A stretch of DNA of 64,000 nucleotides from Cordylochernes scorpioides. Lineage: Eukaryota; Arthropoda; Arachnida; Pseudoscorpiones; Chernetidae. This document shows positions 35,179-64,000 of this stretch, piece after piece (the stretch's first letter is position 1; each line of letters opens with the position of its first letter). A program made the position numbers and the translations under genes. A model generated the notes under the pieces. It saw only the letters and a list, made by a program, of their open reading frames with translations, ran no database searches and was not told the DNA's origin. The DNA lies in NCBI GenBank assembly GCA_030710605.1, contig CP092872.1, forward strand, positions 3,144,757-3,208,756. The letters run 5' to 3'.

Positions 35179-35192
35179 ATTTATAAACACAT

Positions 35193-37732: not shown

Positions 37733-38502
37733 TTATTCTTCATTGTTGGCTTTTTATATTACATTTACTCTTTATTGTTGGCTTTTTATCTTACATTCAT
37801 TCTTCATTGTTGGCTTTTTATATCATATTTACTCTTCATTGTTGGCTTTTTATATTATATTCTGACCAAAATCTATCTGTGAACTTCACACAGTGAACTT
37901 CACACAGACAGAATAAGGCAATTATGTAAGTAGATTTACTCTTCTTTGTTGGCTTTTTATCTTACATTCATTCTTCATTGTTGGCTTTTTATATTACATT
38001 TACTATTCATTGTTGGCTTTTTATCTTACATTCACTCTTCATTGTTGGCTTTTTATCTTACATTCATTCTTCATTGTTGGCTTTTTATATTACATTCACT
38101 CTTCATTGTTGGCTTTTTATCTTACATTATTCTTCATTGTTGGCTTTTTATATTACATTTACTCTTCATTGTTGGCTTTTTATCTTACATTCACTCTTCA
38201 TTGTTGGCTTTTTATATTATATTTTTAGATTGAGATTATTAGCTAGTATGTAAAAATATTAACTCTGTTGAAATTTAATTTTGTATTTATATATAAATAA
38301 AATTAACTCTGTTGATTTTTTTGTATTTAATCGATAACAGCGAAGTTACGCATGTTAATGTTAGGGAAAAATATTTTGACGTTAAGCAAAACCTGCTCCA
38401 TCTCGTTTTACATAAATGTTGAAAATTTGGTCGAAATTGATGCATTGTAACGAAAGTTTTTAGTGATGTCCTCTTATGAAATTTGCATTTTATTAATATA
38501 GA
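36775..38502 (-). mobile_element. Composite Helitron inserted in gypsy pol
   Basis: Minus-strand 3' end CTAG at 36775-36778 preceded by A; 5' end TC at 38502 followed by T. This is the A/T target of Helitrons. The gypsy frame reads into both edges, so the entire 1.7 kb was gained after gypsy inserted, followed by the internal tandem duplication. Confidence 0.7.
37663..38222. repeat. 32-bp minisatellite
   Basis: Units of TTCATTGTTGGCTTTTTAT plus a TTACATTCACTC-like spacer, in two runs (37663-37860 and 37926-38222). It produces repetitive hydrophobic open frames that are not real proteins. The inverted copy is at 63710-64000. Confidence 0.9.
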
Positions 38503-38505
38503 TTA

Positions 38506-38652
38506 AAGAAGATGTCTAGCGTCAATTATCTAATAGAACCGAAAGATACACCTAGACAAGATCCATTGAAAGTTCATGTTTCGAAACTCAACCTTATTAT
38601 AAAATAATTAATGAGGTAATTCATGAGGATGTGACAACCTCAGGAGGGGGAA
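38506..38652 (+). pseudogene. Ty3/gypsy pol C-terminus and polypurine tract
   Basis: VNYLIEPKDTPRQDPLKVHV (about 38520-38580) continues the integrase C-terminus. A purine run AGGAGGGGGAAG (38641-38652) directly precedes the 3' LTR. Confidence 0.75.
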
Positions 38653-39040
38653 GTGTTGCATCCTGTTTGATGTGCCCTCCATTTAATTAAAATAATCTCT
38701 GATATTTTAAATATATTTATACAATTAATATCAATTAAGGAGGATCAGAAGATGAGTTTCTTTTATTGTATGAATGCAACGAGCTTTCGGGCAAAAGCCC
38801 TTCGACAGGCAAAATATAACTATACAAAGAAAGATAACGATTTATATATGTTAATCTTAACTGAAAACCGATTTTTGAATAAAGTAAATATTAAATCTGC
38901 TGTCTGAGACCACGAGACGGCGCATGGTTTGGGCTATTGAAATAAACATGTGGGAGGTTTAAATGTAGTTTGTGTAGGCTGCGGGGATGTCTATTTTTCT
39001 ATTTATGCTGTGTAGCTTGGATGAAACTATGGATTCTAGA

Positions 39041-39193
39041 ACCAAGACAGCGAGAATACAATTTTCACCGACCTCCACACTTACAATCCCAACATCACAT
39101 TCACTCTTGAGAGAGAACATGAGCTTGTTATTCCTTTCCTGGACGTCCTAGTCATACGCACCCCAAACACCTACCATACCACAGTCTACTACA
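39041..39193 (+). pseudogene. PLE reverse transcriptase, C-terminal piece
   Basis: Reads TDLHTYNPNITFTLEREHE then VIPFLDVLVIRTPNTYHTT, matching the PFLDV region of PLE RT. The frame is broken by the insert at 39194. Confidence 0.75.
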
Positions 39194-39774
39194 GATTAGA
39201 AAATTCGGCTCACATAGCCAGGGACGATATAGGCAGCAATGCCCTTGCGTCCCCTCTAGCGTCACACAGCCCGAAGGAATGATGCATTCTCCATGCACCG
39301 AGCGGCCTTTGGTAGGCCCCTCGCGCCCGCCAGTATGGTCCGGCTACAATGGGGTTGACCACTCACCCACAGGCGTCTCCGAGAGTTCATTGGCAAGGTT
39401 ACTGTCCGAGCCCTCTCGTTCGGACTTAGATCCACCCGTCCTACGCTCCTATAGGACTCCCCCCCCTTTAGCCCTCGCACCCTTACCCAGTCCTCCCTGA
39501 ATCTGCCGTCGAATCAAGGACCTCTGAGGTGCCGAGGTTGACGCGGGGACACCGACGTGGAGGCGGGGGGGTGGTACTACTGTGTGCACCCCTTGGTTTC
39601 TCATGGTGCGCACGGCAAGGACGCTCCCAATGGCGCACACACAGAGCGAAGACCCAAGAGTTTCAAGACACGTGCGCCTCGCTTTCGCGAGTGCAACACG
39701 TAGAGACGCCTCTCTACACTCACTCCCCTCTAGGGTGACCGTAGAGGGCAGCCCCACAGGGTCTTCCGCCCCCG
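39194..39774. mobile_element. 581-bp GC-rich insert with 14-bp target duplication
   Basis: Flanked by CACAGTCTACTACA at 39180-39193 and 39775-39788. The right-arm PLE has the same flanks but only 63 bp between them (62666-62728), matching the first part of this insert. The sequence is rich in CpG, has open frames on both strands and resembles no element I know. Confidence 0.75.
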
Positions 39775-39775
39775 C

Positions 39776-40489
39776 ACAGTCTACTACAAGAAAAACCACC
39801 CCCCCAGATACACCCATTATAGGTCGCACTGTCCAACCTCCCACAAAATCAATATAGTTAAAGCCCTCACCCGCCGCCTATTAACCCACTGCTCACTCCC
39901 CATCTTCAAAACTATTGAAAAGAACCGCATCATCTCCCATCTTACAATTTCAGGTTTCCCTCTATCCTTCATAGAAAAACACACCTATTCACCTGTTCCT
40001 CTCAACCCTCCTGCAACTTACAAATCCACATGTGTGATCCCATTCTCTCCCCTCTTAGTTAACCTCTCCCGTTTCCTCAAACCCTTTGGCATCCGTACCT
40101 TTTTTACTAACACACCTAACCTCCACTCACTCCTTAGGCATCCCATCACAAAAACCGACTCCTCCACTGATCCTCTAACATCTTCTGGAGCAGTCTACTC
40201 GGTCTCGTGCCAACAGTGTCCTGCCACCTATGTGGGGGAGACCGGTAGAACCATCGCCATCAGAATGAACGAACACACACGCAACATCACCAACCGAGAT
40301 ACCCGTTCCCTTATTTTCCAACACATTGCATCTTCTGGCCATTCCTTTGACACTGCTAACCCAACCATTCACTACAAAAATATCTCCAACCTACACCAGA
40401 GATTGGTTCTAGAATCCATAGTTTCATCCAAGCTACACAGCATAAATAGAAAAATAGACATCCCCGCAGCCTACACAAACTACATTTAA
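39776..40489 (+). CDS. PLE C-terminal region with GIY-YIG endonuclease
   Basis: The frame is open for about 238 codons from the insert edge. It begins VYYKKNHPPRYTHYRSHCP, the thumb-like end of PLE RT that includes the HK residues. The endonuclease follows near 40195: VYSVSCQQCPATYVGETGR carries the GIY (VYS), YIG (YVG) and CxxC features. Further on come IAIRMNEHTRN with conserved Arg and Glu-His, and HIASSGHSFD. PLE endonucleases nick chromosomal DNA to prime reverse transcription. Without the RT core the element is not autonomous. Compared with the right-arm copy it keeps four extra residues (TRSL). Confidence 0.8.
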   Translation, partial: TVYYKKNHPPRYTHYRSHCPTSHKINIVKALTRRLLTHCSLPIFKTIEKNRIISHLTISGFPLSFIEKHTYSPVPLNPPATYKSTCVIPFSPLLVNLSRFLKPFGIRTFFTNTPNLHSLLRHPITKTDSSTDPLTSSGAVYSVSCQQCPATYVGETGRTIAIRMNEHTRNITNRDTRSLIFQHIASSGHSFDTANPTIHYKNISNLHQRLVLESIVSSKLHSINRKIDIPAAYTNYI

Positions 40490-41004
40490 ACCTCCCACAT
40501 GTTTATTTCAATAGCCCAAACCATGCGCCGTCTCGTGGTCTCAGACAGCAGATTTAATATTTACTTTATTCAAAAATCGGTTTTCAGTTAAGATTAACAT
40601 ATATAAATCGTTATCTTTCTTTGTATAGTTATATTTTGCCTGTCGAAGGGCTTTTGCCCGAAAGCTCGTAGCATTCATACAATAAAAGAAACTCATCTTC
40701 TGATCCTCCTTAATTGATATACCTTACTAGAAGAGTCTTTACCTTTATACAATTAATATCAACAGATTATCTAATATGGTATCATTCATTTTGTAACATT
40801 GTTATTGTTTACATCTTGATTGTTTATTTTTGGGAAGAGAGGAGCGATCGACGCGAAGTCTCAAGATCACCAACTACGAGGAAAATAACAGATAAATAAA
40901 GATACAAAATTGTATAGATAAACATTTCATTAATTTGAAAAAAAAAATATCACAAACGTGATAAATATGCTGGGATAGGATTCATAAATTTAAAAAGTAA
41001 AAAG

Positions 41005-41065
41005 GCATCTCCTTATCAGGCAACTGAAAGTTACTGATGACTACAGTTGCCCGATAAGGAAATGC
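41005..41065. repeat. 61-nt hairpin in both arms
   Basis: GCATCTCCTTATCAGGCAAC pairs with GTTGCCCGATAAGGAAATGC around a 17-nt loop; the flanks also pair. Counterpart at 61391-61451. Length and shape recall a miRNA precursor, but a MITE remnant is as likely. Confidence 0.7.
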
Positions 41066-41104
41066 TATTTTTTTAAATTTCATTAATTACTTTTTATTAT
41101 AATA

Positions 41105-41380
41105 CACCTATCCCCCGATTTACACGGTAGATACGTTCCTGAGAAAAACGTGTAAATCGAAAATTATTTTTTTTTTTAATTAGAAATACAGACACAGTGT
41201 GCGTGTGCAGCAAGTCAGCACATAAGCTCGGGATTTCTCGTGAGATGTGTACACAGCGCATGTGTTTAATCACAGTAGCATTTAGTATAGTGCGATAAAA
41301 ACAAAAAAAAAACTTATTTGGGAAACCGTGTGAAAGCTAAAACGTGTAAAACAAGTACCGTGTAAATCGGGGGATAGGTG
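41105..41380. mobile_element. Pogo/Tigger-like MITE, family D
   Basis: 276 bp with ends CACCTATCCCCCGATTTACA and complement, TA on both sides. Mirror copy at 61073-61351. Confidence 0.85.
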
Positions 41381-41408
41381 TACAATATAATGCGGCCTAT
41401 GATTGTAA

Positions 41409-41671
41409 AACGATGATAGACAAATTTTACCGCAAATGCTTCTTTTTAAACGAAAAATCGTAATTTTTATTCAAGGAGAAAAAACGACTATTCCCAACCT
41501 TAAGGGATGAAGTAGGAAAGGATGAATTGTGAAGAGTAATGATGAACGGAAAAATAAAAGTGTCCAGAGATGGGAATCGAACCCACAGTGTTCCGCTTAC
41601 CGAGCAGATGCCATGTCCAGGGTAGCTTAGTGGACATGGCATCTACCCGGTAAAATTTGTCTAACATCGTT
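41409..41671. mobile_element. TIR element enclosing a tRNA-like region
   Basis: 24-bp inverted ends (AACGATGATAGACAAATTTT and complement, one mismatch) enclose a minus-strand Pol III B-box-like GGTTCGATTCCCATCTCTGG. A hairpin with 14-bp arms AGATGCCATGTCCA also lies inside (41603-41643). Mirror copy at 60781-61044. Confidence 0.7.
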
Positions 41672-42056
41672 ATACTTTTTTTTATTTACTTCTATTATGG
41701 AATCATCCTCTGGAAACATGTATGACGTCAAGAAGAAGAAAACAATGTCGATTATCCTGCAAATCTGCAACTGAACAACAATATTCAACAATTAACTTGT
41801 AGTTGCTTTCCGTGAGGGACAGATTATAAGAATATAGATACTCCTAGAGGTGGTCTCTTATTGGAGGTTTGGATAATTACTTTTTAACTTATTTCAAAAT
41901 TGCTTATCAGAAATGGCTTTCACATGAAATTACACTCCATTGAGCATAAGGTCACTTATACCAACATATCAACGGACTGGTAAATATATTTTGTAAAAAA
42001 AAAAAATCATCGAACGCTTTTAAAAAATATACTTTACCGAGTATTTTAAAGAAATA

Positions 42057-42245
42057 CAGTAGAACTTACTTGTAAAGGAAACATAGTTGCAAAGCCAAAG
42101 TGTTCTTCACAGAGAGATGTCCTCTTACAGGAGAGTTGCTTTATAGTAAAAATAGTAATTTCGGATATATATATGTGAGAAAACTGTCCTTTGTAGAGAA
42201 GTGTCGTCTAGCGTCAGTGACCTCTCATGGAGGTTTAACAGAACT
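42057..42245. mobile_element. Pogo/Tigger-like MITE, family A
   Basis: CAGTAGAACTTACTTGTAAA to GGAGGTTTAACAG. Mirror copy 60210-60396. Confidence 0.7.
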
Positions 42246-42309
42246 TCCTAAGTCAATTCTAATTTTCAAAATCTAAATGCTTAAATTAACCTCTTAAAGC
42301 AAAAAAAAA

Positions 42310-42614
42310 TTTTTTTGGCTTATCCTCAGTACACGTGGTACAGGACATTATAATCATGGTGGGTAGAGGTAGGCGACTGTTTTTACTGTAAGTGCACCAC
42401 ATGTCTACACATGTGAAAAGCAGTTCGACTTTGCACTTGCAAATGTGCCAGAGCCCCGTTTGGTTACTTGCACTCGATGATATGGTTGGACTTATGCAAG
42501 AATCGGGGTCATTGGAATTTTTTTTTAATCAGAAAAAAAGTGGCCAATGCGGGAATCGAACCCGGGTCGTACGGTCGAACACCAACGGTTCAGATCATCC
42601 TTCCACCGACCCCT
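42310..42614 (-). mobile_element. tRNA-headed SINE
   Basis: Same insertion as 59837-60141 in the right arm, hence older than the arm split. Confidence 0.8.
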
Positions 42615-42990
42615 AAAGCAAAAGTAAAAACGGTATAAAAATTTATTATTATTATTTGAATAATAATTTTCTAAGTTTCCGTAGACCGTTGCCAGTTTAC
42701 CAGAATGTCCTGACGTGTAAAAGAATTATGTACATATTATATTTTACCGTCCTTTAAAAAAAGCTTATGTCCTCAGCTTCCTTTGCCAGAATTTCTCTTG
42801 AGAATCATTGATTATAGTAAAGGAACAAAAAAATGGCAAGAGTACCAATCAATACCTTTTATTTTTAGACTTTTAGTATTATTTACAGATAACACAGAGA
42901 GAGATTACAGATATTATAGATAAGATTGAAGTTTACCTCAATGCCTGCGTAGAGATCTATTATAAAATATCGTTTATTTACCTATTTTAT
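42615..42990. other. Gene flank, no feature seen
   Basis: Downstream flank of the minus-strand SKP1-like gene. AATAAAA-type signals lie close after the stop on the minus strand (near 42985). Confidence 0.4.
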
Positions 42991-43509
42991 TTAAATCTTA
43001 CATTTCAATCCAAACTTATCCATTTCTTCTTGAATTTGTTCCCGTTTGATATCATTAGCGAAGCTCTTGACAAGAAGATCTTCTAGAGCGTAGAGCTCCA
43101 GAAAGTTGGCTGCGTTTGCTAATTCCGTTCGTTCGTCGAAGCTCTTCTGTACAAACTCGGTATCCCATGGGGAGAAGACATCTGGGACGTACTTGATATG
43201 TACAGGTTCCTCAACAAACGGTGGGTCGTCTTTATGATGATTCAACCATTCAATTATCATCTTGAGGATAGGGCCTGTGGTTCCAGGTACCAACATTGGT
43301 TCATCAGGATTATGGTCATCTATAAAGATATTAACGTATATAATTTTCATGGCTATCTCGAGATCTGCTTCGATTATCTCACCATCAGGGGATTGTAGTT
43401 TGATCATCTTTGCTGTGCTAGGTGTTGTTGGGAGGTTCGTTGCTACCTGGTCATCCTCTGCAGCACCTTCCATGGTAGATACAGTTGAGTTTCCCGGTAA
43501 TGTCTCCAT
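42991..43509 (-). CDS. SKP1-like protein, long N-terminus (left arm)
   Basis: The 172-aa product has a 34-residue polar, acidic leader (METLPGNSTVSTMEGAAEDD...) and then a SKP1 body: MIKLQSPDGEIIEADLEIA (35-53), MLVPGTTGPILKMIIEWL, NHHKDDPPF (the SKP1 signature), WDTEFVQKSFDERTELANAA (118-137) and NFLELYALEDLLVKSFANDI. It ends EEMDKFGLKCKI, where SKP1 would still have an EEEAQVRKENQWCEEK-type tail. The CUL1-facing fold is thus present and part of the F-box-binding tail is gone. A likely 3' splice site lies 5' of the ATG (mirror of 58868-58869), so the gene has a 5' UTR intron and is not a plain retrocopy. The right-arm gene encodes the same protein. Confidence 0.85.
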   Translation of the reverse strand: METLPGNSTVSTMEGAAEDDQVATNLPTTPSTAKMIKLQSPDGEIIEADLEIAMKIIYVNIFIDDHNPDEPMLVPGTTGPILKMIIEWLNHHKDDPPFVEEPVHIKYVPDVFSPWDTEFVQKSFDERTELANAANFLELYALEDLLVKSFANDIKREQIQEEMDKFGLKCKI

Positions 43510-43559
43510 GAAGCTGTTTGTGAATTTATTTAGTCAAATACTTAGAAAAACAGTTTAGT

Positions 43560-43907
43560 TATCACCCGGTCTCCTGGAGCCCTACAGACAAAAAGCAAAC
43601 AAAATAAACGATTTCAATATTATTTTTTATTCATACTAAGAATTTATCTAGATAACATATATTGACTCTGTTTTTATTTATTCTATGATAAAAATATATG
43701 CCTTCAATTTTTTGCTTGTGTGTGTAGTTTTGTATTTGGAATATTATTTGCTTTTATTCAACTTTATTTTAAAAAATGTATTGCAGAATATATGTGTGAG
43801 AGAGGTACGTTCGTTTGAAAATAGAATAAATATTTGGTATTGAAATAATTTTCATTTAGAGATGAAAATTAATGATAAGGCACAATTTGGATTATAGATT
43901 ATAAACA
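43560..43907. other. Upstream flank of SKP1-like gene
   Basis: AT-rich. On the minus strand TTTGTTTGCTTTTTGTCTG then TAG ends near 43581, a pyrimidine-rich tract with AG fit for a 3' splice site. About 1% different from the right arm. Confidence 0.45.
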
Positions 43908-43941
43908 CAAGGTAATAAGACCAAATATATAAATAGTGTGT

Positions 43942-43975
43942 GACGTTTCAGTAACAGTGTTGTTGCCATCATCAG
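43942..43975 (-). ncRNA. PLE-type small hammerhead ribozyme motif
   Basis: On the minus strand CTGATGA, a stem-loop, then GAAACGTC. All invariant core bases of the hammerhead (CUGANGA, GAAA) are present. The very short stem III (CGTC) is the form described for PLE hammerheads, which cleave as dimers. One stem II pair is mismatched. Confidence 0.65.
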
Positions 43976-43995
43976 ACATCATTCAGTACTTTTGA

Positions 43996-44029
43996 CTGAA
44001 GATGGTAACAACGCTGTTACCGGAACGTC
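43996..44029 (+). ncRNA. PLE-type hammerhead motif, core altered
   Basis: CTGAAGA, stem GGTAACA-ACGC-TGTTACC (perfect), then GGAACGTC. The GAAA is changed to GGAA, so activity is doubtful. Confidence 0.5.
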
Positions 44030-44072
44030 ACACACTATTTATTTATTTGGCTTTAATTACCTTGTGTTTAGA

Positions 44073-44769
44073 GATGAAAATTTTTCATTTTGTGAAGTCG
44101 TTTTGTGAAAATTTATATAAAGTTCATGTGAAAACTATTCGAAATATACAATATTAATAAATATACAAAGTTTGTTTTGTGTCCGCTTATAATTTTTTAA
44201 AATGGTGTTCCCAGAATTTTATGTGTCTGAGATACTACTGTACATTCAGTAAAAAAATCTATTTACATGACATGTTTCTATCATCAATGGCAACGTTTAT
44301 TCACAAAATTGATTGGATATCGACCTTGCCATTGTGAAGTTAAATAACAAGAATACCTTCATTGTGATTTGCATACAATATTTGGAGCTCTGTGTCGAAG
44401 TGTCGTCTCACGTCAGCCCATTGTCTCAGCCAGATTCCTTGAACTGTGGAATCCGGAGGTGCTGAAGGACCGTTAGCTTGATGCAATGTTTCCTACATAA
44501 CCGTTAGGTTCACTAGATGTTGACTGTCTTCATTAGTTTTATTTGGTTAACCAAGAATTCTATAATTGAATTAAATCAATAAAAAAAAGACTTGTGTATA
44601 TTTGCAGAGTGTCTCTATTCAGAAATTGGAAGGCAAGCTTCCACGCTTCATCAGGCCACTGGCTCTGCAAAGGCGTGTAACATACATATAATAGAGATTC
44701 ACAGAAATAAATTTTAAAATCAAATATAAATAGTTTCCAGTTGTAGACAATGACAATTGAAACAAATTT
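44073..44769. other. Arm sequence without gene
   Basis: Matches 57700-58380 inverted at several per cent divergence. At 44590-44700 is a repeat with CCTGATGAAGCGTGGAAG that looks like another retroelement end. Confidence 0.45.
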
Positions 44770-45150
44770 TATTGACTTCGTGTCAATAATTTACGTTAAA
44801 AAATGGGAAAAAACTAAAATATATATGATCATGCGGGGGATGTGCCCCGGCGAGTGAGCCTTCTTTCCCAGGCGATGAGCGGATGGTCAGCCCAACCTGT
44901 ACGAAGTACCGGTAGATGATGGATTTGGCCGACGTCAAGATGGCCAAGTCGTCATCTTCGAGGCCAGACCCGAAACTCCAGGCCCGTAAGTCAGGGGGTC
45001 GCCCGAGGACACTGAAGGCTTCGATGATGAGGGGCCTGATACGACTGGAGCTCCAGTTGTAGAGGGTTAGGGGGACAGTTTCAATAGGGGTAGGATTATC
45101 TGTCTTGAATATGCTGGAACTGTTGGGGTAGATCTTCTGTTTATGCTGTT
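44770..45150 (-). pseudogene. LINE polymerase C-terminal fragment (left arm)
   Basis: Minus-strand mirror of 57285-57690, with the same IYRYFVQVGL block. Ends with GTCAATAAAATTTGTTTCAA. Confidence 0.65.
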
Positions 45151-45274
45151 ATTGTATAGCGTATTATGGTGACAACTACCCGCGGTCTGTCCTACAGTTC
45201 AAAATAGTTTTTGTTATATTCATAAAACAAGTGGAGTTCTAATTCACAGAGAATAGCGCTAAGATGGTTTATGT

Positions 45275-45590
45275 CTTTAAAATATTGTAAGGAAGGCTGA
45301 GTCTAGATTGGTGGTTCTGTGGGGGCCGAGAGACTTCCTTCCAGCCTGCTGAGATGACAGACCACGGCAAACATACAAGCGGGGGCCTGGAAATAGTACA
45401 GATGGCCACCGCTGCGGCAGATCGGCGGAAGTCAATGAGAACCCAATAGACATTCTAGGGTGTTGTCCTTTTGTCTTCCTATAAAAATGTAGCAAATGCG
45501 TAATACAAAATAAACACTAACTATGAAATACTTTCTGGGCCATCGCTGGACTTAATAAATCGACACACTACAGTTCCTAGGAGGGTCCTG
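45275..45590 (-). repeat. Interspersed repeat, unassigned
   Basis: Three copies (also 49895-50190 and 56870-57175) start TAGTGTGTCGATTTAT and contain GGACAACACCCTAGAATGTC. They yield similar short frames, but frameshifts between copies argue against a protein. Possibly an LTR fragment. Confidence 0.5.
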
Positions 45591-45960
45591 TCTTAAAAAT
45601 GATTTCTGCGTTGAAGTTAAAGAATCCACATTCTCTCTGAGTGAGTTTTCATGGTCTTCACAACGAATGAATTTTTCCAGGCATCTTTAAAACAAAAATA
45701 TGTCTATACCCGAACATGAATAACATCTTCGCTCTTTTTTAGTTACAAGGTAATATAAGATATTAGAATAAAAACCTTGTATTGAGTGAAGAGACAAAAT
45801 TTTGGTATAAAATGTTATCTCCTGGGTGTAAAATCCCATTTTAATATTGGTAATATTTCTTCGGAATGTGGTTTGAAGGTTCTTGAGGCTTCTTCCTTTT
45901 GCTGGAATAGATTCCTTGCAGCTATGAGGAGAGAGGTCACATCCTGAAACATTATTTCAT

Positions 45961-46091
45961 TCAATTCTCCCTTCCAATCATCTCGCAGAGATCAACAGGA
46001 ATCCTACCTTCCTTCCTTGGATCTTCTCTGTACCTAGCAAGGTCTATGGTCACTTTACGTCCTCTACACAACACATCAGAGATTGTCGTAG
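45961..46091 (-). CDS. Candidate exon 2 of MGNCC gene (left arm)
   Basis: Reads ATTISDVLCRGRKVTIDLAR then YREDPRKEGRIPVDLCEMIG and stops at TGA (45961-45963). The 3' splice site would be CTAGAG just 5' of CTACGAC. It is three codons shorter than the right-arm copy. Exon status is inferred from frame conservation and matching phase. Confidence 0.35.
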
Positions 46092-46254
46092 CTCTAGCTA
46101 ATTACTTTAAGAATCATTTCTAACAAGAGCTAATGGCAACGAGATTCTATATTAAAGATATATAAGATTGGCCATCTTTCAGATAATAACTTCCTTCAAC
46201 AGGCTGTAATACGAACACCATTTTTGATGCGTATGATTCTTTTTGAAATAAAAT

Positions 46255-46725
46255 AATTTTCTACTGCCCTTACTGCAATTATAAATTAATAGGAGGGCCT
46301 GGCTCATCAGTGGTGAACTATATTAAGTACACCAATACCTCGCTTTGCGTCGTTTCGTTTTGCGTTTTTTTTTTTTTTTTTCGAAGTTGCGTCGCTGCTT
46401 AATTTTTACTGATTTTCACTGTGCGTTGTTAGATTTTCTAAGTTGCGTTATTTTGGATTCTAGGCTTTAATTTTTTTTTTCTAAAATATGGCAATACCTT
46501 TGTTTTTGATTGCGCCAATTTATTTTCACTTTGCGTCGTTTCAATTTGCGTCGTGTTTTTTTGGAACGTAACCCCGACGCAAAGCGAGGTATGGGTGTAT
46601 GGTAAATTAAACTGGAGAAATCGCTGGGGGATGGATTCACCACTGATGAGTCAGGTCTTCATATTATTTTATTATTGCAGTAAGGGCAGTAGAAAATTGT
46701 CTTGTTTAAAAAGAAATATACGCAT
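46255..46725. repeat. Foldback element interrupted by MITE C
   Basis: Arms hold TACTGCCCTTACTGCAAT and TTGATGCGTATGATTC. A family-C MITE sits in the loop at a TA. Confidence 0.75.
46330..46597. mobile_element. Pogo/Tigger-like MITE, family C
   Basis: Uninterrupted copy, TA on both sides. The right-arm counterpart is split by a copia element. Confidence 0.85.
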
Positions 46726-47039
46726 CAAAAATAATTTACATTCCTAACAACATAAAAGTTTCAAAGTTCGGAGATTTTGTATTCCTACCTTTTGTGCATT
46801 GATCTACCATTGCTGCCAGGATTGTCTGAGTTGTTATAGGAAGTTCAGAGGGAGCTTATAGAGTTTTCTGAAGACGTCGAGTGTCATAGCGATTGCTGAA
46901 GATCTAAATCTCGACATAACGTGAAAAAATTGCTCCTACCTTGTACATTGGTCCACTATTGCCATTGGGAATGCCAGAGTTATACTAAAAGATCTAAAGA
47001 TGGCCTAAAAGCCTCAGGAAATAGCGAATATACAGTAGT
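46726..47039. other. No gene seen
   Basis: Contains a short internal duplication (TGTACATTGGTCCACTATTG near 46940 and TTGTGCATTGATCTACCATT near 46794). Mirror at 53690-54000. Confidence 0.4.
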
Positions 47040-47400
47040 ACATCTCTCTTCTTCTTCTTTCTTATCTCCACTCAATCATATTAGGGTATCAAGTTGACAA
47101 CCATCATGACTGTGTTAAGTAGAAAACGTCTGCCTTTGTCATTAAAACTGGGAGCACTACTCAGTAGCAGGCCGACTTAGCTCCAAAAGAAATGGCCGCC
47201 TCTGACATGAGGAACAGACGCCATGTGCAGCTGCTCCTAACATGGAGTACAAACGCTGCTCATCCGGTATCCCTGAAGACCTTACAGGGTGCTATCAGCC
47301 GGGCCAGCTGAGCCCAGGTTTTTTAGTGAGCTTGTTACTGCTCTCCCTCCTCCTTTTTCATCCGGGCTTGGGACCGGCAACATCTAGTTACAGACGTAAA
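47040..47400. repeat. Interspersed repeat, unassigned
   Basis: Third copy of the 15735 family; mirror of 53330-53690. Confidence 0.6.
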
Positions 47401-47500
47401 CTGTCCTTTAGAGAGAAGTGTCTTCATAGTGGACAACAGCTGATAGGTAAAAATAGCAATTTGGACAATGATAACTATATTTTGTAATAAATTCGAACTA

Positions 47501-47655
47501 TTTTGACGCGTATGATTCAACTAAATAAATATTTTTTCTGTCTTTACTGCAATGATAAAATAATTAGAGGGTCTGGCTCATCATTGCAGTAAGGGTAGTA
47601 GAAAATTGATTTATTTTTTTAAAAAATCATACGCGTCAAAAATCGTTAAAATTTC
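47501..47655. repeat. Foldback element
   Basis: TTTTGACGCGTATGATTCA pairs with its complement at 47625-47645; loop carries GGTCTGGCTCATCA. Mirror at 53085-53240. Confidence 0.75.
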
Positions 47656-50190: not shown

Positions 50191-50197
50191 ATATGAT

Positions 50198-53240: not shown

Positions 53241-53329
53241 AATATATTATAAAATATAGTTATCATTGTCCAAATTGCTATTTTTAACTTTCAGCTGTTC
53301 TCCACTATGAAGACGCTTCTCTCTAAAGG

Positions 53330-54668: not shown

Positions 54669-55488
54669 TCACCCCATGTTGGAAAGTTTCATGAATTTGT
54701 TCAACATGTCTTTACATAAGGGTTTAGTTAACATGTCTGCTATGTTTCTGCATTCCTTAATGTAGTCTATTTTGATTTCAGTATTTATTGTTTCTATTGC
54801 TGTGATTACATTTTCATACTCTTCATTCAATGACAATAACAGATGACATATTTTGTCAGATTCATCCATTTTGGAACCTATATTATCCAATTCACGAATT
54901 ATAGAATCAAATTTAAGAAAATGGTCCTCTAATTTTTCATTATGTTTGCATTTTAAAGTCAACAACTTTCTTTTTAGTGTTAGTTTTGTAAACACGCTTT
55001 TTCTTTCAAATATATTTTCGAGCGCTTTCATCATTTCTTTAGCTGTTTTTGCATCTTTAATTATGTCTAGATGTTTATCAGTTAAACATTGAACAAGCGT
55101 AGATTTTGCCTTTGCATCTTCAATTGCAAATAACTCGCGTTCTTTTTCATCGACAAAATCATTAATTTCCTTTCTAATGTTAGATGTATTTGTTTTTCTT
55201 CTAACAATAGTTTAACTCAACAACAACAACAACAACAAAAAGCCTTTATTCAGGGTCACTGACCCTATACAGGATTCACCAGAGGTATGCATAAGACCAA
55301 AGCAGTGAGACAAAGGAAATAGCGATATATACAGAAGAAAAGGAAAAAAAAAACAAGAAAGAGAAAGAGGGAAGCAAGAAAAACAACACAAAAAGAGTAG
55401 CAGTAAGAAAGTGTAGTTTAACTCTAAATTTACAGCTGTTGAAATTTGTACCAGTCAAAATTGGCAAATTAGAATTAATTACGCTCAT
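54669..55488 (-). pseudogene. Copia gag fused to RNase H tail
   Basis: Starts MSVINSNLPILTGTNFNSC (55488), typical of copia gag, then is broken by a LINE at 55219-55413. It resumes with KALENIFERKSVFTKLTLKR and LEDHFLKFDSIIRELDNIGS. A deletion joins it to ECRNIADMLTKPLCKDML, the C-terminal RNase H motif of copia Pol. Protease, integrase and RT are lost; mobility would need proteins in trans. Confidence 0.85.
55219..55413 (-). mobile_element. 5'-truncated LINE with (GTT)n tail
   Basis: Minus strand ends AATAAAGGCTTTTTGTTGTT repeated; 11-bp duplication TAGTTTAACTC at 55208-55218 and 55414-55424. Nested inside copia. Confidence 0.85.
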
Positions 55489-55770
55489 TTTAAAATATAT
55501 TTAAAGTTGTACTTACTAAAACACGTTCTTGATATTTCTTTGTTATTATTTCAACTTCAGTCTCATAATCTGTTATTTTGTAGTTTAATTAACACATAAA
55601 TATACTACAAATTAAGATAATATCTTATTTTATTATCTTTACCAAGATTGCAAACATATTAATTAGAGAATTATTTACAACACACTAAAAGGTAAACATT
55701 AGGGCTATATGCATTCCTTTGTTCTGTACTGCCAGGGTTGCTGAAACACATTTATTTTAACATTGGTGTA

Positions 55771-56020
55771 CTTAATAGAGTTCACCACTGATGAGCCAGG
55801 CCCTCCTATTAATTTATAATTGCAGTAAGGGCAGTAGAAAATTATTTTATTTCAAAAAGAATCATACGCATCAAAAATGGTGTTCGTATTACAGCCTGTT
55901 GAAGGAAGTTATTATCTGAAAGATGGCCAATCTTCTATCTCTTTAATATAGAATCTTGTTGCCTTTAGCTATTATATTCCTCCTTATAGCTCTTGTTAGA
56001 AATGATTATTAAAGTAATTA
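55771..56020. other. Foldback half and intron-like DNA
   Basis: Mirror of 46100-46325 (GGGCCTGGCTCATCAGTGG reversed, GGGCAGTAGAAAAT). No other feature. Confidence 0.45.
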
Positions 56021-56027
56021 TCTAGAG

Positions 56028-56167
56028 CTACGACAATCTCTGATGTGTTGTGTAGAGGACGTGAAGTGACCATCGACCTTGCTAGGTACAGAGAAGCTCC
56101 AAGGAAGGAAGGTAGGATTCCTGTTGATCTCTGCAAGATGATTGGAAAAGAGAATTGGATGAAATAA
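56028..56167 (+). CDS. Candidate exon 2 of MGNCC gene (right arm)
   Basis: After TATCTAGAG the frame CT-ACG-ACA reads TTISDVLCRGREVTIDLARY then REAPRKEGRIPVDLCKMIGK and ends ENWMK-TAA. Its phase fits the predicted end of exon 1 at 52755, giving a protein of about 195 aa. The intron would be 3.3 kb, full of transposons. A frame is also kept in the left arm. Splicing is a prediction. Confidence 0.35.
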
Positions 56168-56457
56168 TGTTTCAGGATGTGACCTCTCCCTGCATAGCTG
56201 CAAGAAATCTATTCCAGCAAAAGAAAGAAGCCTCAAGAACCTTCAAACCACATTCCGAAGAAATATTACCAATATTAAAATGGGATTTCACATCCAGGAG
56301 TTAACATTTTACCAACATTTTGTCTCTTCACTCAATACAAGGTTTTTATTGTAATACCTTATATTACCTTATAACTATGAGGGAAGATGTTATTCTTGTT
56401 CGAAAATAGGCATCTTTTCGTTTTAAAGATGCGTAGAAAAATTCATTCTTTGTGAAG

Positions 56458-56770
56458 GGGGGTCGATGGAAGGCTGGTTAAACCGTTTGGTTTACGACCA
56501 CTACGACCTGGGTTCGATCCCCGCATTGGACACTTTTTTCTGTTTGAAAAAAAATGCTCCAATGGCCCCCCCCCGATTCTTGCAAAAGTCCAACCCCACC
56601 AGCGAGTGCAAGTAACCAAACGGGGCTCTGGCACATTTGTAAGTGCAAAGTCGAACTGCTTTCACATGTGTAGACATGTGGTGCGCTTACTGTAAAAAGC
56701 AGTCGCTAACTACCCACCATGATTATCATGGCCTGTACCACGTGTACTAGGGATTAGCAAAAAAAAAAAA
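56458..56770 (+). mobile_element. tRNA-headed SINE with perfect 13-bp duplication
   Basis: ATTCTTTGTGAAG flanks it at 56445-56457 and 56771-56783. The left arm has a single site (TTCATTCGTTGTGAAG mirrored, near 45660). It defines the SINE: tRNA head first, poly-A last. Confidence 0.95.
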
Positions 56771-56869
56771 ATTCTTTGTGAAGACAATGAAAACTTACTC
56801 AGAGAGGATGTAGATTCTTTAACTTCAACGCAGAAATAATTTTTAAGACAGGACCCTCCTAGGAACTGT

Positions 56870-57175
56870 AGTGTGTCGATTTATTAAGTCCAGCGATGGC
56901 CCAGAAAAGTATTTCATAGTTAGTGTTTATTTTGTATTACGCATTTGCTACATTTTTATAGGAAGACAAAAGGACAACACCCTAGAATGTCTATTGGGTT
57001 CTCATTGACTTCCGCCGATCTGCCGCAGCGGTGGCCATCTGTACTATTTCCAGGCCCCCGCTTGTATGTTTGCCGTGGTCTGTCATCTCAGCAGGCTGGA
57101 AGGAAGTCTCTCGGCCCCCACAGAACCACCAATCTAGACTCAGCCTTCCTGGAAATAGTTTTAAAGACATAAACC
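56870..57175 (+). repeat. Interspersed repeat, unassigned
   Basis: Mirror of 45275-45590. Confidence 0.5.
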
Positions 57176-57284
57176 ATCTTAGCGCTATTCTCTGTGAATT
57201 AGAACTCCACTTGCTTTATGAATAGAGCAAAAAAATTTTAGATCTGTCGGACAGCCCGCGGGTAGTTGGTAACATAATACGCTA

Positions 57285-57690
57285 TACAATAACAACATAA
57301 ACAGAAGATCTACCCCAACAGTTCCGGCATATTCAAGACAGATAATCCTACCCCTATTGAAACTGTCCCCCTAACCCTCTACAACTGGAGCTCCAGTCGT
57401 ATCAGGCCCCTCATCATCGAAGCCTTCAGTGTCCTCGGGCGACCCCCTGACTTACGGGCCTGGATTTTCTGGTCTGGCCTCGAAGATGACGACCTGACCA
57501 TCCTGGCGTCGGCCAAATCCATCATCTACCGGTACTTCGTACAGGTTGGACTGACCACCCGCTCATCGCCTGGGAAAGAAGGCTCACTCGCCGGGGCACA
57601 TCCCCCGCATGATCATCTATATACGTATTTTAGTTTTATTTCCATTTTTTAACGTAAATTATTGACAAGAAGTCAATAAAATTTGTTTCA
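57285..57690 (+). pseudogene. LINE polymerase C-terminal fragment (right arm)
   Basis: Frame from about 57300 reads IYPNSSGIFKTDNPTPIETV, LYNWSSSRIRPLIIEAFSVL, RAWIFWSGLEDDDLTILASA and IIYRYFVQVGL. This is the downstream part of a non-LTR polymerase. It ends with GTCAATAAAATTTGTTTC. 5'-truncated. Confidence 0.65.
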
Positions 57691-58420
57691 ATTGTCATAT
57701 TGTCTACAACTGGAAACTATTTATATTTGATTTTAAAATTTATTTCTGTGAATCTCTATTATATGGGTGTTGCACGTCTTTTCGGAGCCAGTGGTCCTAT
57801 GAAGCGTAAAAGCTTGCCTTCCATTTTCTGAATAGAGACACTCTGCAAATATACACAAGTCTTTTTTATTGATTTAATTCAATTATATAATTCTGGGTTA
57901 ATCAAATAAAACTAATGAAGGCAGTCAACATCTAGTGGACCTAAGAGTTATGTAGGAAACAACATTGTATCAAGTTAACGGTCCTTCAGCACCTCCGGAT
58001 TCCACAGTTCAAGGAATCTGGCAGAGACAATGGGCTGACGTGAGACGACACTTCGACACAGAGGTTCCAAATATTGTATGCAAATCACACTGAAGGTATT
58101 CTTGTTATCTAACTTCACAATGGCAAGGTCGATATCCAATCAATTTTGTGAATAAACGTTGCCATTGATGATAGAAACATGTCATGTAAATAGACATTTT
58201 TTACTGAATGTACAGTAGTATCTAAAAGATTAAATTCTAGAAACACTATTTTAAAAAATATATATGCTGACACAAAACAAACTTTGTATATTTGTTTATA
58301 TTGTATATTTCGATTTTTTTTACATGAACTTTATAGAAATTTTCACAAAACGACTTCACAAAATGAAGAATTTTCATATCTAAACACAAGGTAATAAGAC
58401 CAAATAAATAAATTGTGTGT

Positions 58421-58454
58421 GACGTTTCTGTAAGAGCGTTGTTATCATCTTCAG
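58421..58454 (-). ncRNA. PLE-type small hammerhead ribozyme motif
   Basis: CTGAAGA, stem-loop (ATAACAACGCTCTTA), then GAAACGTC on the minus strand. Core complete; stem II partly weakened. Confidence 0.6.
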
Positions 58455-58474
58455 TCAAAAGTACTGAATGATGT

Positions 58475-58508
58475 CTGAAGATGGTAACAATGCTCTTACA
58501 GAAACGTC
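58475..58508 (+). ncRNA. PLE-type small hammerhead ribozyme motif
   Basis: CTGAAGA, TGGTAACAATGCTCTTACA, GAAACGTC. Core complete (CUGANGA, GAAA); stem II weakened by a G-to-C change. Such minimal hammerheads with tiny stem III are known from PLEs. Confidence 0.6.
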
Positions 58509-58867
58509 ACACACTATTTATTTATTTGGTCTTATTACCTTGTGTTTATAATCTATAATCCAAATTGTGCCTTATCATTAATTTTCATCTCTAAATGATA
58601 TATTATTTCAATACCAAATATTTATTCTATTTTCAAACGAACGTACCTCTCTCACACATATATTCTGCAATACATTTTTTAAAATAAAGTTGAATAAAAG
58701 CAAATAATATTCCAAATACAAAACTACACACACAAGCAAAAAATTGAAGGCATATATTTTTATCATAGAATAAATAAAAACAGAGTCAATATATGTTATC
58801 TAGATAAATTCTTAGTATGAATAAAAAATAATATTGAAATCGTTTATTTTGTTTGCTTTTTGTCTGT

Positions 58868-58869
58868 AG
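58868..58869 (+). promoter_or_regulatory. Predicted 3' splice site before SKP1-like ATG
   Basis: TTTGTTTGCTTTTTGTCTG then TAG precedes GGCTCCAGGAGACCGGGTG, about 70 nt 5' of the ATG. Same in the left arm. The matching donor was not located. Confidence 0.45.
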
Positions 58870-58941
58870 GGCTCCAGGAGACCGGGTGATAACTAAACTG
58901 TTTTTCTAAGTATTTGACTAAATAAATTCACAAACAGCTTC

Positions 58942-59460
58942 ATGGAGACATTACCGGGAAACTCAACTGTATCTACCATGGAAGGTGCTGCAGAGGATGA
59001 CCAGGTAGCAACGAACCTCCCAACAACACCTAGCACAGCAAAGATGATCAAACTACAATCCCCTGATGGTGAGATAATCGAAGCAGATCTCGAGATAGCC
59101 ATGAAAATTATATACGTTAATATCTTTATAGATGACCATAATCCTGATGAACCAATGTTGGTACCTGGAACCACAGGCCCTATCCTCAAGATGATAATTG
59201 AATGGTTGAATCATCATAAAGACGACCCACCGTTTGTTGAGGAACCTGTACATATCAAGTACGTCCCAGATGTCTTCTCCCCATGGGATACCGAGTTTGT
59301 ACAGAAGAGCTTCGACGAACGAACGGAATTAGCAAACGCAGCCAACTTTCTGGAGCTCTACGCTCTAGAAGATCTTCTTGTCAAGAGCTTCGCTAATGAT
59401 ATCAAGCGGGAACAAATTCAAGAAGAAATGGATAAGTTTGGATTGAAATGTAAGATTTAA
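58942..59460 (+). CDS. SKP1-like protein, long N-terminus (right arm)
   Basis: Encodes the same 172 residues as 42991-43509 (see there for domains). Overlapping frames in the other strands are also identical, so the DNA itself is identical or nearly so over the gene, while its immediate flanks differ by about 1%. AATAAA at 59460-59465 and 59473-59478 can serve polyadenylation. Like all four copies it lacks the canonical SKP1 tail. A role as a specialised SCF adaptor is possible but not shown. Confidence 0.85.
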   Translation: METLPGNSTVSTMEGAAEDDQVATNLPTTPSTAKMIKLQSPDGEIIEADLEIAMKIIYVNIFIDDHNPDEPMLVPGTTGPILKMIIEWLNHHKDDPPFVEEPVHIKYVPDVFSPWDTEFVQKSFDERTELANAANFLELYALEDLLVKSFANDIKREQIQEEMDKFGLKCKI

Positions 59461-59836
59461 ATAAAATAGGTAAATAAACGATATTTTATAATAGATCTCT
59501 ACGCAGGCATTGAGGTAAACTTCAATCTTATCTATAATATCTGTAATCTCTCTCTGTGTTATCTGTAAATAATACTAAAAGTCTAAAAATAAAAGGTATT
59601 GATTGATACTCTTGCCATCTTTTTGTTCCTATACTATAATCAAGACTCTCAAGAGAAATTCTGGCAAAGGAAGCTGAGGACATAAGCTTTTTTTAAAGGA
59701 CGGTAAAATATAATATGTACATAATTCTTTTACACGTCAGGACATTCTGGTAAACTGACAACGGTCTACGGGAACTTAGAAAATTATTATTCAAATAATA
59801 ATAATAAATTTTTATACCGTTTTTACTTTTGCTTTA
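59461..59836. other. Gene 3' flank, no other feature
   Basis: Mirror of 42615-42990. Confidence 0.4.
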
Positions 59837-60141
59837 GGGGTCGGTGGAAGGATGATCTGAACCGTTGGTGTTCGACCGTACGACCCGGGTTCGATTCCCG
59901 CATTGGGCACTTTTTTTCTGATTAAAAAAAAATTCCAATGACCCCGATTCTTGCATAAGTCCAACCATATCATCGAGTGCAAGTAACCAAACGGGGCTCT
60001 GGCACATTTGCAAGTGCAAAGTCGAACTGCTTTTCACATGTGTAGACATGTGGTGCACTTACAGTAAAAACAGTCGCCTACCTCTACCCACCATGATTAT
60101 AATGTCCTGTACCACGTGTACTGAGGATAAGCCAAAAAAAA
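59837..60141 (+). mobile_element. tRNA-headed SINE
   Basis: Flanked by TTTTGCTTTA at 59827-59836 and 60148-60157. Shared with the left arm. Confidence 0.85.
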
Positions 60142-60209
60142 TTTTTTTTTTGCTTTAAGAGGTTAATTTAAGCATTTAGATTTTGAAAATTAGAATTGAC
60201 TTAGGAAGT

Positions 60210-60396
60210 TCTGTTAAACCTCCATGAGAGGTCACTGACGCTAGACGACACTTCTCTACAAAGGACAGTTTTCTCACATATATATATCCGAAATTACTAT
60301 TTTTACTATAAAGCAACTCTCCTGTAAGAGGACATCTCTCTGTGAAGAACACTTTGGCTTTGCAACTATGTTTCCTTTACAAGTAAGTTCTACTGT
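60210..60396. mobile_element. Pogo/Tigger-like MITE, family A
   Basis: Mirror of 42057-42245. Confidence 0.7.
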
Positions 60397-60780
60397 ATTT
60401 CTTTAAAATACTCGGTAAAGTATATTTTTTAAAAGCGTTCGATGATTTTTTTTTTTTACAAAATATATTTACCAGTCCGTGAATATGTTGGTATAAGTGA
60501 CCTTATGCTCAATGAAGTGTAATTTCATGTGAAAGCCATTTCTGATAAGCAATTTTGAAATAAGTTAAAAAGTAATTATCCAAACCTCCAATAAGAGAAC
60601 ACCTCTAGGAGTATCTATATTCTTATAATCTGTCCCTCACGGAAAGCAACTACAAGTTAATTGTTGAATATTGTTGTTCAGTTGCAGATTTGCAGGATAA
60701 TCGACATTGTTTTCTTCCTTCTTGACGTCATACATGTTTCCAGAGGATGATTCCATAATAGAGGTAAATAAAAAAAGTAT

Positions 60781-61044
60781 AACGATGTTAGACAAATTTT
60801 ACCGGGTAGATGCCATGTCCACTAAGCTACCCTGGACATGGCATCTGCTCGGTAAGCGGAACACTGTGGGTTCGATTCCCATCTCTGGACACTTTTATTT
60901 TTCCGTTCATCATTACTCTTCACAATTCATCCTTTCCTACTTCATCCCTTAAGGTTGGGAATAGTCGTTATTTCTCCTTGGAATAAAAATTACGATTTTT
61001 CGTTTAAAAAGAAGCATTTGCGGTAAAATTTGTCTATCATCGTT
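60781..61044. mobile_element. TIR element enclosing a tRNA-like region
   Basis: Mirror of 41409-41671. The plus strand carries the 14-bp hairpin (60809-60848) and B-box-like GGTTCGATTCCC. Confidence 0.7.
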
Positions 61045-61072
61045 TTACAATCATAGGCCGCATTATATTGTA

Positions 61073-61351
61073 CACCTATCCCCCGATTTACACGGTACTT
61101 GTTTTACACGTTTTAGCTTTCACACGGTTTCCCAAATAAGTTTTTTTTTGTTTTTATCGCACTATACTAAATGCTACTGTGATTAAAACACATGCGCTGT
61201 GTACACATCTCACGAGAAATCCCGAGCTTATGTGCTGACTTGCTGCACACGCACACTGTGTCTGTATTTCTATAATTTAAAAAAAAAAATAATTTTCGAT
61301 TTACACGTTTTTCTCAGGAACGTATCTACCGTGTAAATCGGGGGATAGGTG
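61073..61351. mobile_element. Pogo/Tigger-like MITE, family D
   Basis: Mirror of 41105-41380, TA on both sides. Confidence 0.85.
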
Positions 61352-61390
61352 TATTATAATAAAAAGTAATTAATGAAATTAAAAAAAATA

Positions 61391-61451
61391 GCATTTCCTT
61401 ATCGGGCAACTGTAGTCATCAGTAACTTTCAGTTGCCTGATAAGGAGATGC
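61391..61451. repeat. 61-nt hairpin
   Basis: Mirror of 41005-41065. Confidence 0.7.
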
Positions 61452-61711
61452 CTTTTTACTTTTTAAATTTATGAATCCTATCCCAGCATATTTATCACGT
61501 TTGTAATATTTTTTTTTCAAATTAATGAAATGTTTATCTATACAATTTTGTATCTTTATTTATCTGTTATTTTCCTCGTAGTTGGTGATCTTGAGACTTC
61601 GCGTCGATCGCTCCTCTCTTCCCAAAAATAAACAATCAAGATGTAAACAATAACAATGTTACAAAATGAATGATACCATATTAGATAATCTGTTGATATT
61701 AATTGTATAAA

Positions 61712-63187
61712 GGTAAAAACTCTTCTAGTAAGGTATATCAATTAAGGAGGATCAGAAGATGAGTTTCTTTTATTGTATGAATGCTACGAGCTTTCGGGCA
61801 AAAGCCCTTCGACAGGCAAAATATAACTATACAAAGAAAGATAACGATTTATATATGTTAATCTTAACTGAAAACCGATTTTTGAATAAAGTAAATATTA
61901 AATCTGCTGTCTGAGACCACGAGACGGCGCATGGTTTGGGCTATTGAAATAAACATGTGGGAGGTTTAAATGTAGTTTGTGTAGGATGCGGGGATGTCTA
62001 TTTTTCTATTTATGCTGTGTAGCTTGGATGAAACTATGGATTCTAGAACCAATCTCTGGTGTAGGTTGGAGATATTTTTGTAGTGAATGGTTGGGTTAGC
62101 AGTGTCAAAGGAATGGCCAGAAGATGCAATGTGTTGGAAAATATCTCGGTTGGTGATGTTGCGTGTGTGTTCGGTCATTCTGATGGCGATGGTTCTACCG
62201 GTCTCCCCCACATAGGTGGCAGGACACTGTTGGCACGAGACCGAGTAGACTGCTCCAGAAGATGTTAGAGGATCAGTGGAGGAGTCGGTTTTTGTGATGG
62301 GATGCCTAAGGAGTGAGTGGAGGTTAGGTGTGTTAGTAAAAAAGGTACGGATGCCAAAGGGTTTGAGGAAACGGGAGAGGTTAACTGAGAGGGGAGAGAA
62401 TGGGATCACACATGTGGATTTGTAAGTTGCAGGAGGGTTGAGAGGAACAGGTGAATAGGTGTGTTTTTCTATGAAGGATAGAGGGAAACCTGAAATTGTA
62501 AGATGGGAGATGATGCGGTTCTTTTCAATAGTTAAGGTGGGGAGTGAGCAGTGGGTTAATAGGCGGCGGGTGAGGGCTTTAACTATATTGATTTTGTGGG
62601 AGGTTGGACAGTGCGACCTATAATGGGTGTATCTGGGGGGGTGGTTTTTCTTGTAGTAGACTGTGAGAGGGGACGCAAGGGCATTGCTGCCTATATCGTC
62701 CCTGGCTAGGTGAGCCGAATTTTTAATCTGTAGTAGACTGTGGTATGGTAGGTGTTTGGGGTGCGTATGACTAGGACGTCCAGGAAAGGAATAACAAGCT
62801 CATGTTCTCTCTCAAGAGTGAATGTGATGTTGGGATTGTAAGTGTGGAGGTCGGTGAAAATGGTATTCTCGCTGTCTTGGTTCTAGAATCCATAGTTTCA
62901 TCCAAGCTACACAGCATAAATAGAAAAATAGACATCCCCGCAGCCTACACAAACTACATTTAAACCTCCCACATGTTTATTTCAATAGCCCAAACCATGC
63001 GCCGTCTCGTGGTCTCAGACAGCAGATTTAATATTTACTTTATTCAAAAATCGGTTTTCAGTTAAGATTAACATATATAAATCGTTATCTTTCTTTGTAT
63101 AGTTATATTTTGCCTGTCGAAGGGCTTTTGCCCGAAAGCTCGTAGCATTCATACAATAAAAGAAACTCATCTTCTGATCCTCCTTAA
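61712..63187 (-). mobile_element. Penelope-like element (right arm copy)
   Basis: Same insertion as 38735-40743, flanked by TTGATATTAATTGTATAAA (61693-61711, 63188-63206). It has the inverted 3' end at 62883-63187. The foreign insert is reduced to 63 bp. Confidence 0.8.
61966..62409 (-). pseudogene. PLE GIY-YIG endonuclease (right arm)
   Basis: 147 residues are still open, with VYSVSCQQCPATYVGETGR and IAIRMTEHTRN. A 12-nt deletion removes TRSL. Upstream (about 62525) a 2-bp deletion puts the RT tail out of frame, so the longer left frame is broken here. Confidence 0.75.
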
Positions 63188-63424
63188 TTGATATTAATTG
63201 TATAAATATATTTAAAATATCAGAGATTATTTTAATTAAATGGAGGGCACATCAAACAGGATGCAACACTTCCCCCCTCCTGAGGTTGTCACATCCTCAT
63301 GAATTACCTCATTAATTATTTTATAATAAGGTTTGAGTTTCGAAACATGAACTTTCAATGGATCTTGTCTAGGTGTATCTTTCGGTTCTATTAGATAATT
63401 GACGCTAGACATCTTCTTTAATCT

Positions 63425-63710
63425 ATATTAATAAAATGCAAATTTCATAAGAGGACATCACTAAAAACTTTCGTTACAATGCATCAATTTCGACCAAATT
63501 TTCAACATTTATGTAAAACGAGATGGAGCAGGTTTTGCTTAACGTCAAAATATTTTTCCCTAACATTAACATGCGTAACTTCGCTGTTATCGATTAAATA
63601 CAAAAAAATCAACAGAGTTAATTTTATTTATATATAAATACAAAATTAAATTTCAACAGAGTTAATATTTTTACATACTAGCTAATAATCTCAATCTAAA
63701 AATATAATAT
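63425..63710 (+). mobile_element. Helitron 5' part (right arm)
   Basis: Mirror of 38225-38502, starting TCTATATTAATAAAATGC. Confidence 0.7.
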
Positions 63711-64000
63711 AAAAAGCCAACAATGAAGAGTGAATGTAAGATAAAAAGCCAACAATGAAGAGTAAATGTAATATAAAAAGCCAACAATGAAGAATGAATG
63801 TAAGATAAAAAGCCAACAATGAAGAGTGAATGTAATATAAAAAGCCAACAATGAAGAATGAATGTAAGATAAAAAGCCAACAATGAAGAGTGAATGTAAG
63901 ATAAAAAGCCAACAATGAATAGTAAATGTAATATAAAAAGCCAACAATGAAGAATGAATGTAAGATAAAAAGCCAACAAAGAAGAGTAAATCTACTTATA
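63710..64000. repeat. 32-bp minisatellite (right arm)
   Basis: Mirror of 37926-38222, with one 32-bp unit completed where the left copy has a short deletion (near 38128). Continues beyond the window. Confidence 0.9.

Follow-up and report, generated by a model that had tools for sequence, protein, structure and literature searches.

Whether a large palindrome with SKP1-like genes in both arms is a real structure, or instead two haplotypes joined tail to tail, is the question raised by a region of the Cordylochernes scorpioides assembly. The window, by which we mean the whole stretch of 64,000 nt that was analysed, corresponds to G000:C10:3144757-3208756 of the parent scaffold, and all positions are given in window numbering. 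A scaffold neighbourhood from -109999 to 174000 (284 kb) was compared with itself by BLAST, and the contigs between its joins are referred to as c0, c1 and so on. We consider, at a probability of roughly 0.88, that the palindrome is an assembly artefact, in which c4 and c5+c6 would be two haplotype copies of one locus, placed side by side in opposite orientation. The "duplicated" SKP1-like genes are probably alleles that have been counted twice.

Results

The window contains an inverted match of more than 10 kb, as originally predicted. Positions 37927-48274 align with 63998-52511 over 9,738 columns, with 253 substitutions and 47 gaps. The spacer, predicted to be about 4 kb long, measures 4,136 bases (48375-52510, plus strand); it is c5 sequence past the end of the c4 overlap, and holds repeats also present in c4. 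There are two 100-N joins in the window (4659-4758 and 48275-48374), and the second directly follows the left arm at its inner end, a coincidence already pointed out and exact to the base, since 48274 is the last base before it. The outer limit proposed at 37926, which pairs with the end of the window, proved to be a window-edge effect. Self-comparison of the parent scaffold shows that the inverted match goes on, pairing 34302-37654 with 72111-68757, 33203-34319 with 73316-72204 and, in the outermost block, 13517-28731 with 97658-82459 (15.2 kb, 99.5%). The left arm is the part of c4 that matches reversed c6+c5 (13517-48274, plus strand); it includes unmatched stretches, chiefly 28732-33202, and its inner part was aligned base by base. 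Inside the window the right arm consists of c5 sequence (52511-64000, minus strand), and outside it extends through c5 and c6 to 97658. The full arms are about 35 kb (left) and about 45 kb (right) long, the right one including another join at 67257 and extra insertions. Around that join, 3.0 kb before it and 1.4 kb after it have no c4 match of at least 200 bp, which marks an insertion in the right copy. The length and closeness of the inverted match exclude chance.

The borders of the arms coincide with contig ends. When c4 (4759-48274) is set against reversed c6 (67357-97658) plus c5 (48375-67256), the match begins where c6 ends, at a point within c4, and finishes where c4 ends, at a point within c5. 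The outer end of the right arm, 97658, is the last base of c6, directly before the next 100-N join at 97659. The contigs overlap end to end in a dovetail-like manner, as two reads would, and because homology reaches the contig ends on both sides, the inverted match behaves like a contig overlap. The border between right arm and spacer falls inside an open reading frame (ORF; 52293-52862, plus strand) whose left counterpart, in the frame 47710-48384 on the minus strand, is cut by the join, an observation that favours the haplotig reading. This ORF has no match at E ≤ 0.001 in the protein database.

The arms were predicted to differ by substitutions plus clean insertions, and the in-window alignment bears this out, with five gaps of at least 20 bp besides the substitutions. 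The left arm has an extra 517 and 56 bp, and the right arm an extra 326, 1,334 and 21 bp. Substitutions are distributed in blocks. There are 26 in 5,437 columns (0.48%) in 37927-43900 and 227 in 4,301 columns (5.3%) in 43901-48274, and the arm alignment places the step between the lower outer and the higher inner value at 43851-43928. Further out, 34302-37654 has 20 substitutions in 3,350 columns, the first 500 columns from 33203 onward have 44, and 13517-28731, where c4 is compared with c6, has 49 in 15,189 columns. Counted per 500 columns, the arms range from 0 to 44 substitutions, the measured parts of the c7/c8 pair from 2 to 31, and those of c8/c9 from 19 to 30. The range in the arms overlaps those of the two neighbouring pairs, which we count in favour of haplotigs. 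The step near 43.85-43.93 kb could reflect old recombination between haplotypes, which we prefer, or the edge of a conversion tract.

The largest gap is a retrotransposon-like insertion with long terminal repeats (LTRs), present in the right copy only (54434-55767, minus strand). It has 192-bp LTRs with two differences between them, TG...CA ends, a 5-bp target duplication (included in its 1,334 bp) and a copia-type gag. The 326-bp insertion, likewise confined to the right copy (56458-56783, minus strand), belongs to a dispersed repeat family and has a target duplication of about 13 bp; we read it as SINE-like. In the left copy only, 517 bp at 39258-39774 (plus strand) show no clear target duplication, and may therefore represent a loss in the right copy. 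This segment adjoins an ORF with a GIY-YIG match of 21.1 bits, just below the curated cut-off of 22.6, which we take to be a Penelope-like element. Haplotypes commonly differ by insertions at sites that are otherwise empty, and paralogues can differ in this way too. Together, the presence or absence of transposons and the blockwise divergence of 0.3-5.3% are consistent with alleles.

SKP1-like genes are present in both arms, as predicted. The ORFs at 42994-43533 (minus strand) and 58918-59457 (plus strand) encode proteins identical at 180 of 180 residues, as domain search and protein comparison indicate. In the left copy the Skp1 POZ domain (PF03931) scores 46.8 bits against a curated cut-off of 21.9 (E 3.3e-12). 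Matches to SKP1 structures in the PDB extend as far as residue 177 of the 180-residue query, and leave about 20 residues at the end of the full-length SKP1 chains unmatched. As to the C-terminal F-box-binding helices of the SKP1 family, Pfam reports the POZ family alone for this ORF, and the protein has no match at E ≤ 0.001 in the protein database. The window holds two SKP1-like ORFs besides the predicted pair, both on the minus strand, with matched parts at 14248-14646 and 24685-25080; their right-arm partners are 96394-96948 and 85974-86528, respectively. Each of the three SKP1-like genes on c4 has a positional counterpart on c5/c6, with protein identities of 100, 98.9 and 99.5%, whereas the paralogues at 14.6 and 25.0 kb on one contig are 87.6% alike, a contrast that points to alleles.

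In the 284 kb, 12 SKP1-like places were counted, including an extra copy at the end of c0 that is 95.7% like the 14.6-kb copy over 162 residues. Four of the 12 can be read as second copies of loci already present, which leaves about eight. The remaining places form a real local cluster, some of its members having a stop within the matched stretch.

The neighbouring contigs show related patterns among the 10 joins between -109999 and 174000. Contig c7 (97759-116641) matches c8 (116742-152339) from the first base of c8 to 3 bases short of the end of c7, and c9 (152440-169058) matches c8 from the second base of c9 up to 2 bases short of the end of c8. Between these matches BLAST left 4 bases of c8 unaligned; by eye, they are filled by the last 3 bases of c7 and the first base of c9, so that the ends of c7 and c9 abut. 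Contig c8 looks like the counterpart of c7+c9, placed between them. This abutment is expected if a haplotig has been inserted between two fragments of the alternative haplotype, but not from a tandem duplication. Three SKP1-like queries gave no hit in c7, c8 or c9 at E up to 1e-4.

The end of c1 is overlapped by contig c0, the two differing by 5 substitutions and 27 indel events over 5,303 columns. Contig c0 also overlaps c4, starting from the first base of c4 and lacking the c4 stretches 7777-11280 and 12538-13465. Even so, the scaffold has c0 ahead of c1 and some 100 kb away from c4. Within these 284 kb of one chromosome, the same assembly therefore has other misplaced overlapping or allelic contigs (the c7/c8/c9 interleaving, and c0), and such contigs, not real duplications, explain the interleaving.

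Six inter-contig chains have at least 5 kb aligned. Of the 11 chain ends that can be seen, nine are no more than 10 bp from the end of a contig, and two border the single insertion that surrounds the join at 67257; a twelfth coincides with the limit of the compared region. Four shorter chains of 1.5-5 kb (c0 with c1, inverted; c1 with c4, both ways; c1 with c6) have two of eight ends at a contig end, and we read them as dispersed repeats. Flush contig ends in general were dropped as proof of haplotigs: an inter-contig match of at least 200 bp runs right up to 10 of the 20 contig ends, yet with 54.5% of contig bases lying in matches of this kind, random breaks would give as many. The evidence kept, whose scope is 284 kb on one chromosome, consists of the chain ends, the abutment of c7 and c9, and the overlaps of c0.

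In the whole genome (2.62 Gb, 24 contigs), a 2-kb arm probe (41000-43000) gave two full-length matches, which are the two arms, among 40 scored of 19,691 candidates. A spacer probe (50800-52700) found itself as the sole full-length match, and otherwise repeats, among 40 scored of 8,972 candidates, a list that is not exhaustive: the last 190 bases of the probe are arm sequence, yet the left-arm copy is absent from it. The spacer probe thus decides nothing about where c4 continues. Both sets of matches are predicted equally by haplotigs and by a palindrome.

Discussion

Of the two readings offered by the original prediction, haplotypes joined tail to tail gain from the homology that runs to contig ends and from the interleaved neighbours, and an ampliconic palindrome loses from the mosaic divergence. 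We propose that the assembler kept the haplotypes separate on account of their transposon insertions and of a divergence that reaches about 5%, and that the scaffolder then placed both because of their common neighbours, one copy being reversed. On this view, the SKP1-like genes, three per arm, would be alleles, and old recombination between haplotypes would have produced the blocks of 0.3-0.6% and about 5% divergence. The clean one-copy insertions with target duplications also argue for this explanation. It faces several difficulties, however. Flush ends would likewise result if the assembler had broken a genuine long palindrome. The divergence of c4 from c6 is 0.32% over 15 kb, below the 2-5% of other pairs. 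Contig c0 carries a third version of 13466-15000, which differs from c4 by 3 substitutions in the first 1,000 columns and by 40 in the next 500, and a third version exceeds the number expected from one diploid individual; there may be more than two haplotypes in the sample, or the contig tip may be faulty. In addition, c0 sets c1 and c4 about 2.1 kb apart, which puts the position of c2 and c3 between them in doubt.

A real inverted duplication of at least 35 kb would comprise two facing loci around a spacer of about 4 kb, with an outer part recently gene-converted, an inner 4.4 kb diverging, and an assembly broken at 48275, 67257 and 97659. The long collinear inverted match is what it predicts, the sharp change from 0.48% to 5.3% is what the edge of a conversion tract would give, and one contig does contain true direct SKP1-like copies (13760-17724 and 24205-28312). 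We nevertheless regard it as unlikely, since the next contigs break the symmetry: c7 against c4 4759-13516 gives two matches only, of 235 and 156 bp, and c3 against c7 gives no match of at least 150 bp. Moreover, both arm limits lie on joins, the right inner border cuts an ORF, and the neighbouring contigs are interleaved. Quite unlikely, too, is a true palindrome lying inside an expanding SKP1-like cluster, whose arms of at least 35 kb with three SKP1-like genes each would have an outer part recently homogenised by gene conversion between the arms, with a sharp boundary near 43.85-43.93 kb. In the human Y ampliconic palindromes, arm similarity is above 99.9% and maintained by gene conversion (PMC3723533). 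The present structure resembles them in having inverted arms with genes around a spacer, but differs in its mosaic arms (0.3-0.6% and about 5%) and in borders that lie on scaffold joins. Arms and spacer do not form one contiguous sequence here (joins at 48275 and 67257), nor are the arms near-identical throughout, with 0.3-0.6% in the outer part, 5.3% in the inner 4.4 kb and 44 substitutions in 500 columns from 33203.

Two further explanations fare worse. A polymorphic structural variant, in which the SKP1-like block is duplicated in inverted orientation on one haplotype only, would account for the three versions of 13466-15000 on c4, c6 and c0. The third version, however, is on c0, which overlaps c1 and c4 like an ordinary overlapping contig, and the variant requires the same coincidences with joins; we hold it to be very improbable. 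An artefact of fold-back or chimeric reads, with both strands of one molecule read, would produce the inverted layout, but nearly identical arms would be expected, as opposed to 253 substitutions and whole transposon insertions in the window. It was rejected on these differences, and is hardly credible.

Setting these alternatives aside, we return to a haplotig false duplication, here placed in reverse, as the known class of artefact to which the structure most likely belongs, rather than being a real feature. Such an artefact would inflate the real SKP1-like cluster from about eight to 12 places, and so affect gene counts; haplotigs need to be purged before this assembly is used to claim an SKP1 expansion, a palindrome or an inverted duplication. 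Were the palindrome true, gene conversion would be acting on a cluster of ubiquitin-ligase adaptor genes.

Heterotype false duplications, as described in the main text of Ko et al. (2022; PMC9516828), provide one precedent, with an assembly gap between the copies, haplotype-like differences and false gene gains; half depth, discordant pairs and 1-copy k-mers are other marks given there, and the word "inverted" does not occur in that main text. At the present locus the copies lie on separate contigs and match up to the contig ends, which are 48274 for c4 and 97658 for c6, and the 100 N at 48275-48374 form an assembly gap between them. The false segmental duplications described in the main text of Kelley and Salzberg (2010; PMC2864568) as duplicated overlapping or contained contigs (DOC/DCC) are similar, in that contigs from divergent haplotypes, overlapping at their ends or contained, are placed adjacent and mimic a recent duplication. 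Neither "inverted" nor "orientation" occurs in that main text. Unlike those cases, one copy here is reversed, which makes the false duplication look palindromic.

Duplications and repeats in the two copies

The left copy of the large inverted match contains a direct duplication of ~4 kb (13760-17724 and 24205-28312), both units of which lie inside one contig. The duplicates are 91-95% alike, each carries an SKP1-like gene, and they are paralogues.

Two repeats are found in both copies: a minisatellite with a 32-bp unit (37668-38224 and 63709-64222, the second running just beyond the window end) and a palindromic element of ~168 bp (43902-44070 and 58381-58548). The latter lies near the point where divergence between the copies steps from 0.5 to 5%. 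Other features belong to the right copy and lie past the window, whose numbering is continued here beyond both ends. A tandem array at 79020-82662, with a unit of ~111 bp as estimated by self-match spacing, sits where the lengths of the two copies differ. An insertion present only in the right copy (64228-68756) surrounds the join at 67257, and its ends are 425-bp inverted copies of one another, 96% alike.

RNA genes

Five tRNA-Gly(GCC) genes, all on one strand, occur at 8986-11086 in c4, the contig that holds the left copy. A sixth, with a lower score than these five, is found at 3724-3794, on the other side of the join at 4659. The spacer between the arms includes a U6 snRNA-like sequence (49407-49512; 71.1 bits).

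Neighboring contigs

Contig c1, to the left of the window, internally holds an inverted repeat at -60634 to -51222 (G000:C10:3084122-3093534, where G000:C10 is CP092872.1), all in one contig. Sequence self-comparison gave arms of 4.4 kb that are 94.8% alike, with a spacer of 642 bp. Both arms are matched by the start of c4 (4759-6775), and because the ORFs there look like non-LTR reverse transcriptase, the c1 repeat may be two facing transposon copies.

To the right, in the stretch 97759-169058 (G000:C10:3242515-3313814), contig c8 is placed between c7 and c9. In sequence comparison of the contigs, c9 begins directly where c7 ends along the c8 sequence, and c8 is likely a misplaced haplotig.
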